This document shows, one piece after another, positions 1,392 through 28,045 of a DNA stretch of 38,828 bases. This DNA comes from an uncultured Clostridia bacterium (lineage in GTDB: Bacteria; Bacillota; Clostridia; TANB77; CAG-508), in NCBI GenBank assembly GCA_944388625.1, contig CALXJM010000005.1:1-38828 (forward strand). Direction: 5' to 3'. Numbering within the stretch: the first letter of the stretch is position 1; each line of letters opens with the position of its first letter. Position numbers and translations under genes: made by a program. A model generated the notes under the pieces. That model saw only the letters and a list, made by a program, of their open reading frames with translations. It had not been told where the DNA came from and made no database searches.

Positions 1392-2783
1392 TTAAAAATG
1401 TCTTCCACTTTTTTTGCCTTTAAATGAATTATCTTTTATTTCTGTTGATTCATCTTCAAGAGTCATATTTTCATTATATTCTGGAACTTCTGAGTCGCCA
1501 AATGCATTTTCTTTTGTTTTTACATATTTGTATTCAATAATCGCAAATATAATTCCAGCTATAGTTATAATAGATACACATATTGCAAATATAATTTTTT
1601 TAATTAATTCTGCTTTTGCATGCTGTTCTTGTTGCTCTTTTAAGGTGCTCAAAGCTTCCTCATCTAAAGAACTTTTTTGTACCAAAATTTGATATGTTAA
1701 TGTCTCTTCTGTTTCAGGATTTTTTACAATAATAGTAACTACATTTTCTCCTATTTCTAAATTTTTTCCTCCTAATATTTCTACAGTCATTCCTTCTATG
1801 TTTGGAACAGCTTCTACAGATAAAGAAACAACATCTCTTTCTACACTACAAGTATACTCATAAATAAGAGGATCAAAACTTGGCATTAATTCTACTTTAA
1901 TATATTCTCCATTTTCTTTTATAGCGTCCAAGCCAATTGCTTGTATTCCTATTGTTCTATTTTCTTCTTCATCACTAGCTCCTTTTTGTACTTTTATTGT
2001 GTATGTATTTGTACTACCATTTTCTGCTACTACTTGTATTTTTACAATTGTTTCATCATCTTCTAATGTAATTTCACCATCTCCTTTAACTTTTGCATCA
2101 TCATCTTCTGCTCGTGCTGTAATTCTTATTTTCTCTGTGTTTTCCTCTACATTTACTGTATAGGATGTAACTCTTTTGTTAAATTCTGGTGATAAAGTGC
2201 CTGCACTTAATTTAATAGATTCTAAGTAATTGTTACTTGACTTTGTCGGCGTTTCTGAAATTGTTGTAGTATTTTTGTTTATATTAGTATTACTATTCGT
2301 ACTTGTACTTGTATTTGTATTTGTATTTGTACCAGTATTTGTATTTGTATTTGTGCTAGTATTAGAATTTGCATTGTTATTTACAGGTGGCTCTGGTTCT
2401 TGTTTTGCTTGTACGGTAATCGTTTTACTTGCAAAATTTCTCGTTACAACTCCTCCTTCATATTCTGTTATAGATCCTGTTAATGTTACAGTAATATTTC
2501 CTTCTGATGTTGGTGTATATGTTCCAGAAAATGAAATAGGAATATTACTTTCGTAATTGTCTAATTCATTACTTTGCGCAATTACTGTTCCATTAACACT
2601 TAAAGTTAGATTCCATTGTACTGCACTTCCACTAACAGAAATTGTAATTGCCTCCCCTACAGTAGCTGTTCCATTGCAACTAATGCTTGCATTGGCTGCA
2701 TATGTCTTTGAACTAAAAATTAGTAACAGCAAAAGGCATATTCCAATTATAATCAGCAGTGCTTTTTTATTTAATTTTACCAT
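1392..2783 (-). CDS. membrane-anchored surface protein with cadherin-like beta-sandwich domains
   Basis: The 463-residue protein has an N-terminal signal/anchor (about 1-30, ending KTYAA). Next come a beta-sandwich domain (about 31-128) and an Asn/Thr/Ser linker (about 135-183, made largely of NT repeats). Two cadherin-like beta-sandwich repeats follow (about 184-275 and 276-372; typical LKLSxGTLxPxFxxxxxxY and NGxxxxYTI patterns). A transmembrane helix (about 390-412) and an acidic cytoplasmic tail ending KKSGRHF complete it. The start has AGAGGAG with suitable spacing. It lies 16 nt downstream of the dockerin-bearing glucosaminidase and is probably co-transcribed. It is the positional and architectural counterpart of the protein at 24823-26128. 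Its N-terminal domain is cohesin-like in length and position but less convincingly so. Likely role: display or retention of the upstream hydrolase at the membrane (inference). Confidence 0.8.
   Translation of the reverse strand: MVKLNKKALLIIIGICLLLLLIFSSKTYAANASISCNGTATVGEAITISVSGSAVQWNLTLSVNGTVIAQSNELDNYESNIPISFSGTYTPTSEGNITVTLTGSITEYEGGVVTRNFASKTITVQAKQEPEPPVNNNANSNTSTNTNTNTGTNTNTNTSTSTNSNTNINKNTTTISETPTKSSNNYLESIKLSAGTLSPEFNKRVTSYTVNVEENTEKIRITARAEDDDAKVKGDGEITLEDDETIVKIQVVAENGSTNTYTIKVQKGASDEEENRTIGIQAIGLDAIKENGEYIKVELMPSFDPLIYEYTCSVERDVVSLSVEAVPNIEGMTVEILGGKNLEIGENVVTIIVKNPETEETLTYQILVQKSSLDEEALSTLKEQQEQHAKAELIKKIIFAICVSIITIAGIIFAIIEYKYVKTKENAFGDSEVPEYNENMTLEDESTEIKDNSFKGKKSGRHF
2296..2370. 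repeat. hexanucleotide repeat encoding an Asn-Thr linker
   Basis: Degenerate tandem copies of the hexamer GTATTT/GTACTT on the plus strand, encoding alternating Thr and Asn on the minus strand inside the linker of the surface protein. Unit length is a multiple of three, so slippage would lengthen or shorten the linker without breaking the frame. Confidence 0.75.
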
Positions 2784-2799
2784 TTGTTAGACTCCTCTC

Positions 2800-4905
2800 T
2801 TACTTATTTAAATATATACTTTGTATTTCCATAACTTCTCTCTTCAATAGAAATGAATCTCCGCTGTCAATGTATCCATCAAAGTTTACATCTGCTGCCT
2901 TTTTATAATTATCATTTTCCAAGTTTTTCACTTCTTTGATGACTTGTTTTATAACAAAGGTATCTCCACTATCAATATATCCATCTCCATTAATATCTCC
3001 TAGCTTAACAACTGTGTAAGTTTTGTCTCCTATGGTTACTGTACTTCCTGTAGCTAATCTTTCATTTGTAGCTGTTGCATTTTTATACTCCTCTTTAGAT
3101 TGAATATTTTGGATATTAGTTTTAGGCTCTACCTCTATTATTTGATTTTCATCTTCTAATTTAAAATCATTGTTTTCTTTTATAGGTTCTGGTTCTGGTG
3201 TTTCATTAGTAGGCACTAAGTATAACTTATTTCCATCTGGGCTATATCTCGAAGCATATCCCTCTAGCCCGTCAGGCATAACTATTCTGTCCCAGTAATA
3301 TCCGTTTGCATCTTTAGCTTGTGCCTTTTCTATCCTTGTAACAATAGTACCATCACTAAGTGTTCTGATTACATTATAGTTAGTTCCAGGTCCATTTCTT
3401 ACATTTAGTCCATCTGCATTAATCCTTATCTCTTCTCCTCCTGAATTATTAACTGATATATAATTTGTTGCAACATATCCCTGCCTTCCATCTGCTAGCA
3501 TTACTCTATCCCAGCTATAACCATCTTTATTATACATTCCTATTTGAATTCTAGTCATTGCCTGCCCAATTGTTAAGGTAGTGATAACAGTAGTTCCTGT
3601 AAGTCCTGGTCCATTTCTTAAATTAGCTATAGTAGTTGCATACACTTTCTCATTACAGTTTGTTACATCAGCCACCGTTTGTAAATATTTGTTAGCTACA
3701 TATCCTATAGTGCCATCAGATAAAACAACCTTGTCCCAATATAGTCCATCTGTTGTAGATACAGCTTCTTCAATAACAAGTACTGATTCATTTCTATTTA
3801 CAGTTCTTATTATATTTCCAGATAAGCTCCCTGCATCTCTAATTCTCACTTCATCTCCTGTAATAACAGCATTCTTCGTGCATACTTTGTTTGCAGAAGG
3901 AATAGGGCATGGACCTTGTGGCATATTTTCATACATTGGAATTACAAAAGTAAAACCATAATCTAATGTTCCTTCATTTCTATATGTACTGGCTACTCTT
4001 CTGCCTTCTGTTTCCGGTGCTTGAATATTTTGCATATATTGATTGCTAAACAAAGTACCATCAGATCCATCTATGTCAAATTTCTGTAAGTAAACCGTAT
4101 CTAGTCCTTGTTGTAAGTAGTTATTGTATACAAACTGTGCTCCACCTATAATGGATTTTTCTGGTGTATTCCAGCCTTGTGATTTTGCATATGCCAAAGC
4201 ATTTTGAATAATTGTTGCATTGGCAGTTGGATATGCTCCTATATTAAACATGTTATAATATGTATTTCCATCTGAGTCTGTCATTCCTTTACCTGTTGTG
4301 CTTCCACCTGAACCTTGTTCTTGCAATAATCTTGAAGCAAGAAAATAAGGACTTACTCCTGATATTCTAGCTGCTTCCATAAAAGCATCAGTATAATTAG
4401 AGCCTGAAACAAAACTACCAGATGTTAATCTTTCTACACCACTTCTATTTTGCGCTCCTTCAACATAAACATATCTTTCAAATTGGAATACATTAGTATC
4501 ATCTAAAAAGTTTCTTGGATCCATTTGATAAGCAATAGCAGCTTCAGAAGCGCAATTCCATGTTCCATTGTCATATACTTTTGTTCCACAAATAGAGCAA
4601 ATCCATTCTCCACTTTTTCCTTGTATCAAACTTTTTGGGCTAGTTCCATGTCCCGTATATTCACTTTTTATTACATAGTTCCAGTCTAATCCTGTGTAAA
4701 GTAATATAAATTTCCAATTTGGATGTTGATTTTTTAAATTTTGTAGTAATGTTGCATAACCTGGATATTTACTTTCATCTATATTATAAATATTATTACT
4801 ATCTTCATTTCTAAACTGAGCTGCTATAGAGAAATTTATTTTCATATTCATTATTATTATAACGGTAAATAGTACAATTGCAATATATTTTCTTATTTTC
4901 TCCAT
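2800..4905 (-). CDS. secreted glucosaminidase with three SH3 domains and a C-terminal dockerin
   Basis: This 701-residue hydrolase has a signal peptide (about 1-29). A catalytic N-acetylglucosaminidase domain (GH73/LytD-type, about 45-330) contains SRLLQEQG, with Glu196 as the candidate catalytic acid, and an inserted CSIC...C zinc-knuckle-like patch near 103-118. Three bacterial SH3 repeats follow (about 342-411, 420-485, 492-553; each with LRNGPG/VRNGPG and WDxVxLxDGxxGYV). After a Pro/Glu linker come two dockerin calcium loops (DINGDGYIDSGD at 637-648, DVNFDGYIDSGD at 672-683). It would cleave the glycan strands of peptidoglycan. The start at 4905 is chosen because the GGAGG lies between it and the upstream ATG at 4917. 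The anchor gene follows after 16 nt. The dockerin implies a cohesin partner; the best candidate in the window is the protein at 24823-26128. Confidence 0.9.
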   Translation of the reverse strand: MEKIRKYIAIVLFTVIIIMNMKINFSIAAQFRNEDSNNIYNIDESKYPGYATLLQNLKNQHPNWKFILLYTGLDWNYVIKSEYTGHGTSPKSLIQGKSGEWICSICGTKVYDNGTWNCASEAAIAYQMDPRNFLDDTNVFQFERYVYVEGAQNRSGVERLTSGSFVSGSNYTDAFMEAARISGVSPYFLASRLLQEQGSGGSTTGKGMTDSDGNTYYNMFNIGAYPTANATIIQNALAYAKSQGWNTPEKSIIGGAQFVYNNYLQQGLDTVYLQKFDIDGSDGTLFSNQYMQNIQAPETEGRRVASTYRNEGTLDYGFTFVIPMYENMPQGPCPIPSANKVCTKNAVITGDEVRIRDAGSLSGNIIRTVNRNESVLVIEEAVSTTDGLYWDKVVLSDGTIGYVANKYLQTVADVTNCNEKVYATTIANLRNGPGLTGTTVITTLTIGQAMTRIQIGMYNKDGYSWDRVMLADGRQGYVATNYISVNNSGGEEIRINADGLNVRNGPGTNYNVIRTLSDGTIVTRIEKAQAKDANGYYWDRIVMPDGLEGYASRYSPDGNKLYLVPTNETPEPEPIKENNDFKLEDENQIIEVEPKTNIQNIQSKEEYKNATATNERLATGSTVTIGDKTYTVVKLGDINGDGYIDSGDTFVIKQVIKEVKNLENDNYKKAADVNFDGYIDSGDSFLLKREVMEIQSIYLNK

Positions 4906-4969
4906 TTTTTCCTCCATTTATTTTTCAAATCGTTTTTCTTTTCCATTTTTCTACTTTATTTACAATAAG

Positions 4970-5304: not shown

Positions 5305-6000
5305 TTATTTGCAAAATCTATGGTTTCCTATTGTTACAGTTTCTGGTCTTGACCAAATCCAAGCGCTTGTGGCAGTATTAGGATTAAAATAATAAAGAGC
5401 TCCATAAGACGGATCCCATCCGTTTATAGCATCTTGTGCAGCTTTCTTTGCTGTAGCATTTGGTGTCAAATTGATCTGTCCATCATTTACTACACTAAAC
5501 GCACCAGCTTGATAAATAACTCCTGCTATGGTGTTTGGAAAAGAAGAGCTTTTTACACGATTTAGAACAACCGCTCCCACTGCTACTTGACCAGTGTAAG
5601 ATTCTCCTCTAGCTTCTGCATAAATTAGTCTGCTAAGCAAATTTAAATCATTACTATTAATTGCTCCGCTAGAAGAACTACCTGTTGTAGAAGAATTATA
5701 AATTCCCATTGCTGCCAATGTTTTAGGTCCAGCAATTCCATCTTCTGTTAAACCATTTTTTCTTTGAAAATATTTTACTGCGGCTAATGTTTGACTTCCG
5801 TAAATTCCATCTATATTTCCATTATAGTATCCCCACCTTTTTAATTTCGTCTGAATAGTTGTTACTTCGCTTCCTCTTGATCCATATTTAGAAAGTGCAA
5901 AAGCTTCATTGTTTTCTCTAAAAAACAAATGATATGTGAAAAAAATAGTAATTGCAAAAACAAGTAAAAAAACTGAAAATATTTTATTTTTTTTTAACAT
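5305..6000 (-). CDS. sleB: spore cortex-lytic enzyme SleB
   Basis: The 231-residue protein has an N-terminal signal/anchor (about 1-36) and a peptidoglycan-binding domain of the PG_binding_1 type (about 38-100, with GSRGSEVTTIQ, GxIDGIYGSQT and DGIAGPKT). A Ser/Gly linker leads to a SleB/CwlJ hydrolase domain (about 117-231) carrying LLSRLIYAEARGE, AVGAVVLNRV and ALYYFNP. The glutamate in YAEARGE is the expected catalytic residue. SleB is a lytic transglycosylase acting on muramic-delta-lactam cortex during spore germination, so the organism is likely a spore former. Its ribosome binding site (AAAGGTGG) lies in the 3' arm of a hairpin directly before the start. No YpeB-like partner is adjacent. 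Confidence 0.93.
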   Translation of the reverse strand: MLKKNKIFSVFLLVFAITIFFTYHLFFRENNEAFALSKYGSRGSEVTTIQTKLKRWGYYNGNIDGIYGSQTLAAVKYFQRKNGLTEDGIAGPKTLAAMGIYNSSTTGSSSSGAINSNDLNLLSRLIYAEARGESYTGQVAVGAVVLNRVKSSSFPNTIAGVIYQAGAFSVVNDGQINLTPNATAKKAAQDAINGWDPSYGALYYFNPNTATSAWIWSRPETVTIGNHRFCK

Positions 6001-24822: not shown

Positions 24823-26052
24823 TTATTTATCTTTTTTATTCTGTTCATAGTAATAATAAATTAGTATTCCTATCATAGCAATGACTAATAAAATAAAAAT
24901 AATTACCCATGTATAATCTTTGTTTTTTTCTTTTTCTTCTAGCAGTTCTTGATTTTCTTCATTTTTATTTTCTTGTTCTTCTAGCTCTTTTGCTTCTTCT
25001 TCTTGAGTTTTTCTATACACTTTAATCGTATATGTTTTTTCAGAAATTCCATCTTCTGCTAGTACACGAACTTCAACTGTATTTTCTCCAAATTGTAAGT
25101 TTTCATGTCCTGTAATTGTTACTTGTGCATTTTCTCTTTGTGGAACAGCAAGTACATTCAGAATTTCTATATCACTTCCTACAGTTGCCGTATATTCTAA
25201 AATATCTGCTTGGAAAGCTGGTTCTAAAGTCGTAAATTCAATAGCCAAATTCTCTAAATTTGTATTTGCAAGTTCCGGATTATCTGTTTTTGTTACATCA
25301 ATTCTGTACTCTTTTGTGTTTCCATTCTCAGCAGTAACTTTAATAATAATGCGATTCATCCCTGTAACTAATCCCGTGTTACCAGTAACGCTTACCTTCG
25401 ATTTAGAGCTTTCTGGTGTTGCGTTTACAACAATATCTGTAATACTATTTGGTACTGTTATAGTATAATGTGTTGTAGTTTTTTTGAATGCTGGTTGTAA
25501 CCCTTCTATACTTAATTTAAGAGTTTTTAAATTAGTATTACTATCTAAACTGGAGGTATTATTATTAGTTGGTGGAGTAGATGGATTAGTTGGTGTTGTT
25601 ACTTCTCCTGCACCTGTATCTGGGGTAGTGCTCGGAGTTTCTGGATTTGTAGATGGATTATTATTTTCTGGCGGTATAACTGTTTGCTCTTCTTGTATGT
25701 TAACACTTGTTCCTGAAAAGCTTGGATTCAAATTTGTTTTATCCACTCCAAAAAAATCACCACTTACAGAAAAACTTGCCGTTCCAGCAGCTATTGCCTT
25801 GAATTTAAAAGAAACTATTGTACCACCAGTCAATGGGCTGCTTCCACCTGTGGCATCTGTCCATACGTAAATTGCTTTTCCATTAACAAAATTACTATTA
25901 GCCGGTCCAGAAACATACTGTATTTTGGAAGTATCTACTGTAACTCTAGCAGTTAAGCTAGCTACACTAGCATTACTTAAATTAACTGATATAGTAAATT
26001 CTTCTCCTACTTTTAGATTACTTTTGCTAGAAGATAATCCGTATATTTCCAA
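24823..26052 (-). CDS. cohesin-like, cadherin-like membrane-anchored surface protein (signal peptide out of frame)
   Basis: The body is intact: a cohesin-type domain (about 1-125; LKVGEEFTISVNLSNA...VDTSKIQYVSG...GGTIVSFKFKAIAAGTASFSV) comes first. A Pro/Thr/Asn linker (about 126-168) and two cadherin-like beta-sandwich repeats (about 170-255 and 258-345, with LKTLKLSIEGLQPAF and LENLAIEFTTLEPAF) follow. A highly charged Glu/Lys coiled region, one transmembrane helix (about 382-402) and a short basic tail complete it. As read it starts at TTG (26052) with no signal peptide, but a signal peptide is encoded one frame over directly upstream (26027-26128). Removing one G at 26049-26050 joins them as ...NVKAVEIYGLSSS (434 residues). 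It follows the dockerin-bearing glucosaminidase by 69 nt. Likely role: cohesin anchor that holds the dockerin protein at the membrane (inference). Confidence 0.82.
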   Translation of the reverse strand: MEIYGLSSSKSNLKVGEEFTISVNLSNASVASLTARVTVDTSKIQYVSGPANSNFVNGKAIYVWTDATGGSSPLTGGTIVSFKFKAIAAGTASFSVSGDFFGVDKTNLNPSFSGTSVNIQEEQTVIPPENNNPSTNPETPSTTPDTGAGEVTTPTNPSTPPTNNNTSSLDSNTNLKTLKLSIEGLQPAFKKTTTHYTITVPNSITDIVVNATPESSKSKVSVTGNTGLVTGMNRIIIKVTAENGNTKEYRIDVTKTDNPELANTNLENLAIEFTTLEPAFQADILEYTATVGSDIEILNVLAVPQRENAQVTITGHENLQFGENTVEVRVLAEDGISEKTYTIKVYRKTQEEEAKELEEQENKNEENQELLEEKEKNKDYTWVIIFILLVIAMIGILIYYYYEQNKKDK

Positions 26053-26128
26053 CAGCTTTTACATTTGTACTTATGCAAAAAATTAATCCAAAAAGAAATA
26101 ATATTAAACAAATTTTTATTTTTTTCAT
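26027..26128 (-). pseudogene. signal-peptide fragment of the cohesin-like anchor, separated by a frameshift
   Basis: With GAGAGGAG five bases before its ATG, this frame encodes a typical signal peptide (MKKIKICLILFLFGLIFCIS, then TNVKAV) and then falls into a stop after seven out-of-frame residues. It carries the only credible translation start for the anchor gene. The ribosome would have to change frame, or one base be absent, for the 409-residue body to be made with its signal. Confidence 0.8.
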
Positions 26129-26197: not shown

Positions 26198-28045
26198 TTA
26201 TTGCACAATTTTCTCTATTTCTAGTATATGCCTTTGAATTGCATATATATCCAAAGCATTTGGCAGGCTTCCATCTTTTGTAGTATTTCCTGCTATTAAA
26301 AAGCTTTCTTGTAAAACCTCTATTTCTAATATATGTCTTTGTATTGCATACAAATCCAATGAATTAATTTCCCCCTCACCTGTTACATCTCCATATACTA
26401 TAATAATGTATTTATACAATATTTCATCTTCTTCATTTTTAAATATTATTTGACAATTAGTTCCTATTTGTTCATCTTCTTGTAATAATTGGTTATCTTT
26501 ATAAATATCAAATTTTAGTTCTGTTTCTATACATTCTTTTATGTCTTTAACTGTGAGCTTTTGCATATCAATTCCTGTAACTTTATTTTCATTTACAACT
26601 AGTGGTGCTTTAAAGCTTAAATCTGTGCCATCAGAAATTTCTCCAGAATCATCTTCTGGTTCTTCTATTTCTGGAGGTTCTGATGGTTCTTCTGTTTCTG
26701 GAGGTTCGGGTATTTCTGGAATTTCTGGTTCTGATGGCTCTTCTGGAGTTTCTTCCACTTCCTTCACATAGTATTGAAACACATATCCTATCATACCATT
26801 TTTTAGAATTACTTTGTCCCAAGCTTCCCCTGCTTGAATTCCTTTTTCAATTCTTGTAAATTGCGTTTTTGCAGGAATACTTGTAATAATCTCATAAGAT
26901 GTACTCGGTCCTGTTCGTAAACTTAAAGTCGTTTGTACATCTGCATAAACAAGAGTATTGTCAGTTTGAAATTCATTTAAATTTATATTAGGATTGGAAA
27001 CTGGAATTTCTGGCATGTTCTCATAAACTGGAATTAAGAAACCTATAGATGAATTTAAGAGCCCCATAGAACTATATGCTTTATATATACCATAAGACTC
27101 ACTATATGGAGCTAAACAATTTGTCATGTACTGATGCCAAAATAATTCTCCTCCTCTGGCATCATTTACATCGTATTTTTGTAAATATAAAGTATTTTGT
27201 CCTACCAATATATAAGAACTCCCAATAAAAACTCCTCCTCCTTTAATAGCAAGTTTAGGACTTTTCCATGGTATAAGAAGATTGGCTTTTTTTTCTTCGC
27301 TCGCTCCATTTGCATCTCGTGCATATCTTAAACCATTTTTTATTGCTCCTAAGTCTTCTGTGGAACTAGTTGCTCCAATATTATAAAAGTTATACAGTCC
27401 TTCATATCCTTCTACTGTTCCACTAATAGATGGATGTGATAAAAATGGACCTACTTCTTGTTTAATCCTAGCTGCTAAATGATACGGGCTTACTCCAGAA
27501 TGAATAGCAGCTTCTAAAATAAGGTCTCCATAATTTTCTCTTGTATTAATCGGATTTCCATATTCATTTTTATAAGTTACATTTCTTTTATAAAATTCCG
27601 TACCATAAAGTATTTTTTCTACGCCTTCTAATGTATTATTTTTCTCATCATATGTTAATTTTTCAAATTGAAACATTCGAATTTCATTTAAAAAATTTCT
27701 TGGATCCATAGTATATTCTACTGCTCTTTTAGAAGCATTTACCCATCCGCTATCTACTTCTACATCGTAAACGCCTTCACTTGTATTTTTCCATGCATCA
27801 CTATAATTTTTAGGTACAAGATTTTTACCATATTCGCATTCTTTTTCAATTACTAAATTCCAGTCTAGTTCAGTGTATAGCGCTGTAAATTCCCAATTGG
27901 GATATCTTTTTTTTAGTTCTTCTAAATATGGTCTATAACTTTCTGGAAAACTATCAATTCCATTGGTAATATAAGATGCTTTACATGTACTCTCTATAAT
28001 TATAAAAAGCAAAAAAATAGTTAACGCAATGGATATTTTTTTCAT
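26198..28045 (-). CDS. secreted glucosaminidase with SH3 domain and C-terminal dockerin-type repeats
   Basis: The 615-residue protein has a signal peptide (about 1-23) and a GH73/LytD-type glucosaminidase domain (about 30-345) with AARIKQEVG, Glu197 as the candidate acid. One SH3 domain (about 365-432; LSLRTGPSTSYE, WDKVILKNGMIGYV) and a Pro/Glu linker (about 433-478) follow. A small beta module (about 485-550) and two dockerin-like repeats, DVTGEGEINSLDLYAIQRHILEIE and the degenerate NTTKDGSLPNALDIYAIQ, end it. The second loop is one residue longer than normal and begins with Asn. It is a paralogue of the protein at 2800-4905: the same N-terminal PxWxFxxLYTxLDWNxVI and MDPRNFL segments. It is followed by the cohesin-like anchor gene, the likely partner. 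Confidence 0.89.
   Translation of the reverse strand: MKKISIALTIFLLFIIIESTCKASYITNGIDSFPESYRPYLEELKKRYPNWEFTALYTELDWNLVIEKECEYGKNLVPKNYSDAWKNTSEGVYDVEVDSGWVNASKRAVEYTMDPRNFLNEIRMFQFEKLTYDEKNNTLEGVEKILYGTEFYKRNVTYKNEYGNPINTRENYGDLILEAAIHSGVSPYHLAARIKQEVGPFLSHPSISGTVEGYEGLYNFYNIGATSSTEDLGAIKNGLRYARDANGASEEKKANLLIPWKSPKLAIKGGGVFIGSSYILVGQNTLYLQKYDVNDARGGELFWHQYMTNCLAPYSESYGIYKAYSSMGLLNSSIGFLIPVYENMPEIPVSNPNINLNEFQTDNTLVYADVQTTLSLRTGPSTSYEIITSIPAKTQFTRIEKGIQAGEAWDKVILKNGMIGYVFQYYVKEVEETPEEPSEPEIPEIPEPPETEEPSEPPEIEEPEDDSGEISDGTDLSFKAPLVVNENKVTGIDMQKLTVKDIKECIETELKFDIYKDNQLLQEDEQIGTNCQIIFKNEEDEILYKYIIIVYGDVTGEGEINSLDLYAIQRHILEIEVLQESFLIAGNTTKDGSLPNALDIYAIQRHILEIEKIVQ

Follow-up and report, generated by a model that had tools for sequence, protein, structure and literature searches.

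Dockerin and N-terminal domain of adjacent wall hydrolase and membrane anchor genes covary and are exchanged together in a family of Clostridia

Analysis of a 38,828-nucleotide contig of an uncultured Clostridia bacterium (CALXJM010000005.1, assembly GCA_944388625.1; this whole stretch is called the window) revealed two gene pairs on the minus strand, each consisting of a SagB-like hydrolase that ends in a dockerin and an adjacent putative membrane anchor. Hydrolase 1 (2800..4917, 705 residues) carries a signal peptide, a SagB-like glucosaminidase domain (3916..4761), three bacterial SH3 domains (3238..3882; Pfam SH3_3, 3e-19) and a type I dockerin (2827..3009; Pfam Dockerin_1, 1.2e-10) of the class "GDT/GDS", in which both calcium-loop/helix repeats are present (DINGDGYIDSGD and DVNFDGYIDSGD). 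A sequence-only reading had given the gene the same domains from 4905, a second in-frame ATG; the open reading frame starts at 4917. The PF00404 scores of the two dockerins in the window are 41.9 and 29.2 bits, above the cut-off of 22.9. The catalytic domain of hydrolase 1 was not named by Pfam. The SagB glucosaminidase model of NCBIfam (NF052642) matched hydrolase 1 at 3.2e-24 and hydrolase 2 at 1e-6, with 85.6 and 28.2 bits that do not reach the family cut-off of 425. Anchor 1 (1392..2783, 463 residues) follows with a signal peptide (2697-2783), an N-terminal beta-sandwich that we call type A (2394..2696), a linker, two cadherin-like repeats (PF12733, 5.4e-16; 1983..2225 and 1674..1898), a transmembrane helix by sequence and hydropathy (approximately 1530..1595) and a tail that is acidic, as read earlier, and then basic.

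The second pair lies about 21 kb away on the same strand and in the same gene order. Hydrolase 2 (26198..28045) has a SagB-like domain, one SH3_3 domain and a dockerin (26219..26401) of a class of its own (INSLD..xIQRHILE), the second loop of which is degenerate. Anchor 2 (24823..26052) carries a cohesin domain (PF00963; 25726..26025), two cadherin-like repeats and a transmembrane helix; its cohesin scores 26.9 bits, above the cut-off, and that of one relative 34.2 bits. The repetition of order, strand and domain logic described from the letters alone was thus found again, except that the open reading frame of anchor 2 begins only past a 1-nucleotide frameshift near 26041, which puts the signal peptide (26042..26128, ATG at 26128) and the cohesin in different frames. 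The frame is uninterrupted in relatives, and the shift may be an assembly error, decay or variation.

To compare the two pairs, we aligned them domain by domain by BLAST. The catalytic domains are 37% identical (2e-56), the SH3 domains 35-39% and the cadherin-like repeats 37-39% (3e-14 and 7e-13), while the dockerins show weak similarity and the N-terminal domains of the two anchors gave no alignment (E 0.15). Relatives were sampled from 145 genomes of the family in 39 genera, many of them fragmented assemblies. Hydrolase 1 was matched in 138 of these genomes and in 38 genera, anchor 1 in 132 and the cohesin model in 122. Orthologues of pair 2 (E up to 1e-100) were present in 74 genomes and 30 genera, and many genomes carry pair 1 with no strong match to pair 2. 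When 130 catalytic domains were placed in a tree, a branch with a support of 99 set the pair-2 hydrolases apart from all others, and two metagenome-assembled genomes of Bacilli have the same gene arrangement. Given this single clade, its presence throughout the family and the arrangement in Bacilli, the two pairs are, by sequence comparison, ancient paralogues. The earlier proposal that the pair was duplicated and its halves diverged therefore holds for the hydrolases, for the cadherin-like repeats and, by profile comparison, apparently for the N-terminal domains; the duplication was ancient and not local, a recent local one being rejected because the pair-2 clade spans the whole family.

The N-terminal domain is one conserved cohesin in pair-2 anchors and of several types in pair-1 anchors: type A as in the window, the cohesin-like type B, the Big_2-like type C and a small type E. 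Among 89 pair-1 members, similarity of the dockerins followed similarity of the N-terminal domains of the neighbouring anchors (Spearman 0.50), and the correlation was unchanged when catalytic, SH3-region and cadherin similarity were controlled for (0.498; 2,000 permutations gave a mean of 0, a standard deviation of 0.037 and a maximum of 0.128). Dockerin similarity was unrelated to similarity of the catalytic domain (0.01) or the SH3 region (-0.03) of the same enzyme, and the 70-residue segment immediately ahead of the dockerin tracked it only loosely (0.25). Among members with close backbones, the dockerin correlated with the N-terminal domain at 0.74, against 0.27 for the preceding 70 residues. 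The nearest dockerin predicted the type of the N-terminal domain in 89/89 members (88/89 with the same genus excluded), compared with 45/89 (33/89) for the catalytic domain and 46/89 (31/89) for the pre-dockerin segment.

The code resides in the dockerin residue that follows the last Asp of the loop. Type C goes with DY in both repeats (45/45), type B with DS or DA (18/18) and type E with DM (3/3), and the dockerins of type A are mostly DL, DT/DS or DM, two of them being misparsed in the residue scoring. On the catalytic tree the N-terminal type changed at least 33 times and the dockerin class 32 times. All 21 independent contrasts that differ in type C differ in DY as well and in the same direction (p 9.5e-7), and of the 12 for type B with DS/DA, 11 were concordant and one showed no difference. 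A chance link between the two domains was rejected by the permutations, the phylogenetic contrasts and the comparison with the adjacent segment. Another explanation is that the covariation reflects physical linkage only, exchanged tracts happening to span two domains that are not functional partners. Since the dockerin and the N-terminal domain adjoin in the DNA and move as one block, linkage does account for part of their joint exchange. It leaves unexplained why an equally close segment does not follow: the 70 residues upstream of the dockerin predict the N-terminal type about as poorly as the distant catalytic domain does. Moreover, no contrast (0/21) parts type C from DY, the two domains are also absent jointly, and pair-2 and type B anchors carry a cohesin or cohesin-like domain, the known partner of dockerins. 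We thus consider linkage as the sole explanation improbable.

Joint exchange of the two domains is visible at the DNA level. G039 and G004, which are species of a single genus, have hydrolases that are nearly identical up to the dockerin and anchors that are nearly identical past the N-terminal domain (flanks ~99%). They differ by a single block of ~630 bp, which begins with the first codons of the dockerin, stops where the N-terminal domain ends and holds DS/type B in one case and DL/type A in the other. The anchors of both species (L071, L072) stop before the transmembrane helix (..TSRYGFI*), and a transmembrane-like stretch goes on in another frame. Close backbones with different cassettes were also found in L116/L117 (catalytic domain 81% identical, dockerin 27%, N-terminal domain 32%), L130/L136 (77%, 32% and 32%) and L091/L093 (84%, 27% and 39%), and distant backbones with similar cassettes in L119/L172 (41%, 65% and 68%) and L137/L139 (43%, 62% and 67%). 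The window itself compares with L072, its closest sampled backbone, at 58% in the catalytic domain, 57% in the cadherin-like repeats and 24% in the dockerin, and with L101, from another genus, at 42% in the catalytic domain and 63% in the dockerin. Because the dockerin ends the first gene and the receptor begins the second, one short block of DNA carries both lock and key; in the window the putative specificity cassette extends over 2394..3009 and includes the signal peptide of anchor 1. That pair-1 dockerin and N-terminal domain are exchanged as a cassette goes beyond what the earlier reading, made from this DNA alone, could see.

The two domains also go missing together. An anchor gene adjoins the hydrolase gene in 112 cases, at a median gap of 19 bp. 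In 103 of these both the dockerin and the N-terminal domain of the anchor were present, and in seven neither was; these seven may not be independent of one another. The remaining two fit on inspection: in L114 the dockerin, of class DS/DA, lies in the next open reading frame beside a type B anchor, and in L166 the hydrolase is separated from a type B anchor by a cadherin-only protein and an amidase that carries a dockerin, the dockerins of hydrolase and amidase being nearly identical (ARDSLRILRY). A similar amidase insertion in L104 and a split hydrolase in L157 obey the same code; these four loci stood outside the statistics on the 103 pairs. The amidase-like proteins carry a DPGHGG motif (L104 6145-7386, L166 3323-4525), lie upstream of the shared type B anchor and have dockerins broadly of the class of the neighbouring glucosaminidase. 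A transmembrane helix follows the cadherin-like repeats in nearly all anchors. Together, covariation, co-exchange and co-absence make it most likely that each N-terminal domain, including the types with immunoglobulin (Ig)-like or Big_2-like folds, is the private receptor of the neighbouring dockerin.

To characterize the receptor domain, we compared profiles and predicted structures. The profiles of types A, B and C matched the pair-2 cohesin at 94%, 76% and 95%, respectively, the type A match spanning 98 columns in a single comparison of shallow alignments, and matched one another at 93-98%. Control profiles (cadherin-like, Big_2) matched types A and B at less than 6% (type A at 5.5% or less), and a profile of two cohesins from contig C17 of the same genome was too shallow to inform. 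The N-terminal domains of both pairs hence appear homologous by profile-profile comparison, and types A and B are probably divergent cohesins. The predicted structure of type A is an eight-stranded sandwich (predicted local distance difference test score, pLDDT, 94) that aligned over 97-100 residues with the cohesin modules of Clostridium perfringens (Z 9.1 for 2jh2 and 8.8 for 2w1n), which are longer than the domain of anchor 1 and of low identity to it. Several results weigh against the assignment as receptors. The N-terminal domain of anchor 1 had no match to the Pfam cohesin (PF00963) at E up to 10, its best fold matches in the PDB were CARDB and other Ig-like domains (Z ~10), and its cohesin scores tie with those of CARDB, PKD and other Ig-like folds (Z 8.4-10.3). 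Type C also matched the Big_2 profile at 86% and looks closer to Big_2 than to cohesin; its predicted structure (pLDDT 97) is closest to SbsC and Big_2-like folds (Z ~12), with no cohesin among the 50 matches listed by the fold search (Foldseek, VIA-align). It may thus be derived from either cohesin or Big_2. The same tools gave no family name for the N-terminal domains of types A and C, and PDB sequence searches with the anchors returned nothing useful.

A Pfam cohesin in anchor 2, and none matched in the N-terminal domain of anchor 1, is what would be expected if the single cohesin of anchor 2 held both enzymes, as the earlier reading had offered as an option, and anchor 1 used its N-terminal domain otherwise, e.g. 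for binding a wall polymer. The dockerins of the two pairs are, however, of different classes, those of pair 1 follow the N-terminal domain of their own neighbour and are absent along with it, and pair 1 occurs in many genomes with no strong match to pair 2, so that we regard a shared cohesin as highly improbable. Sequence covariation alone cannot split direct from indirect contact, and dockerin and N-terminal domain could each recognize a third variable partner rather than each other. No third gene common to the loci was seen, however, and pair 2 has a true cohesin, the known ligand of which is a dockerin; we give this explanation hardly any weight.

We therefore consider it very probable that each pair forms a private tether, in which the dockerin binds the N-terminal domain of the neighbouring anchor, and that lock and key are exchanged together. 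Each pair would produce a secreted SagB-type peptidoglycan glucosaminidase and a single-pass membrane anchor; the C-terminal dockerin of the enzyme would plug into the N-terminal beta-sandwich of the anchor, which would retain the enzyme where the wall faces the membrane and, in some species, hold an amidase there too. The two pairs of the window would recognize their partners separately, pair 2 by a cohesin conserved family-wide and pair 1 by a fast-changing receptor whose sequence types number at least four (A, B, C and E), the window having type A. Recombination would swap dockerin and receptor jointly while the rest of enzyme and anchor keep their own history. That specificity changes fast to avoid cross-talk with pair 2, with other loci or with neighbouring strains is a guess; two genomes have two type C pairs with similar dockerins, indicating that pairs are not always insulated, which speaks against strict insulation.

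SagB-type enzymes act on the side of the wall nearest the membrane, trimming newly made glycan there. In Staphylococcus aureus, SagB works in a peptidoglycan release complex with a membrane partner, SpdC, that positions it on nascent glycan (PMC10581084), which makes a tether a reasonable need. Here too, a partner protein would retain a SagB-type glucosaminidase at the membrane. Unlike SagB, which is itself membrane-associated, and SpdC, an integral membrane CAAX-protease homologue (PMC10581084), the present enzyme is predicted to be secreted, with SH3 and dockerin domains, and its anchor spans the membrane once and carries cadherin-like repeats. The arrangement shares with cellulosome anchoring the type I dockerin of the enzyme, whose duplicated motif has class-specific residues, and a cell-bound protein that bears a cohesin or a cohesin-like domain, and single-cohesin transmembrane "nonSLH-anchoring scaffoldins" have been noted (PMC11557425). 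It differs in the single receptor domain per anchor, in the peptidoglycan hydrolase as cargo and in the putative pair-1 receptors, most of which show no Pfam cohesin signature and which vary jointly with the dockerin, as one cassette. Dockerin-bearing cell-wall hydrolases are reported from the cellulosome of Ruminococcus champanellensis (PMC6403190); there they join a multi-enzyme scaffoldin, whereas here each pair has its own adjacent anchor. The system was undescribed in the open-licence part of the PubMed Central literature, as far as searched.

Within its own genome (1.18-Mb assembly), four dockerin places, two in SagB-like proteins and two in proteins that look CAP-like by eye, and three cohesin matches were found; as these matches lie in three different proteins, a cellulosome-type scaffoldin with several cohesins was not found. 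All dockerins and cohesins outside the window are on contig C17 (L008 4895-12979, G000:C17). One protein encoded at that locus is CAP-like and combines Ig-like repeats with a cohesin and a dockerin; it is accompanied by a further cohesin protein, which has four Big_2-like repeats and ends in an LPXTG-type motif (LPNTG), by a class B sortase and by another CAP-like protein that carries a dockerin. The CAP domain appears from inspection and a weak YkwD match. In the window, a SleB-like cell wall hydrolase with a peptidoglycan-binding domain (5305-6000, minus strand) lies upstream of hydrolase 1. The tail of anchor 1 ends in GRHF (1395..1406), a motif kept in pair-1 anchors only: G[RK][HR][FSYN] is present within the last 8 residues of 69/91 pair-1 anchors, 0/12 pair-2 anchors and 0/7 anchors of dockerin-less pairs, and this cytosolic C-terminal motif suggests a partner inside the cell. 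Dockerin-less SagB-like hydrolases, mostly with long N-terminal extensions, are followed by short anchors with no N-terminal domain in L128, L135, L138, L144, L162 and L163. In L147 and L150, SagB-like hydrolases with a class DA dockerin have no adjacent cadherin-like anchor, the next gene encoding a zinc-ribbon-like membrane protein.

Dockerins are known mainly from fibre-degrading complexes, and to our knowledge no dockerin receptors other than cohesins are known. Reception of dockerins by non-cohesin Ig-like or Big_2-like domains, within private, recombining lock-and-key cassettes that the whole family would keep for its wall hydrolases, is in our judgement evenly balanced between true and false. 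If true, nature would have assembled dozens of matched pairs here, with a code that can be read (type C paired with DY, type B with DS/DA, etc.). The cassettes supply candidate orthogonal binding pairs, and their independent co-changes, at least 21 in number, allow the specificity of protein pairs to be tested in evolution. In the present family of small-genome bacteria, which is widespread, dockerins appear to direct remodelling of the wall, and a specificity cassette would change by recombination while enzyme and anchor remain unchanged; this opens the way to finding out why a tether of its own should be necessary for a wall hydrolase.

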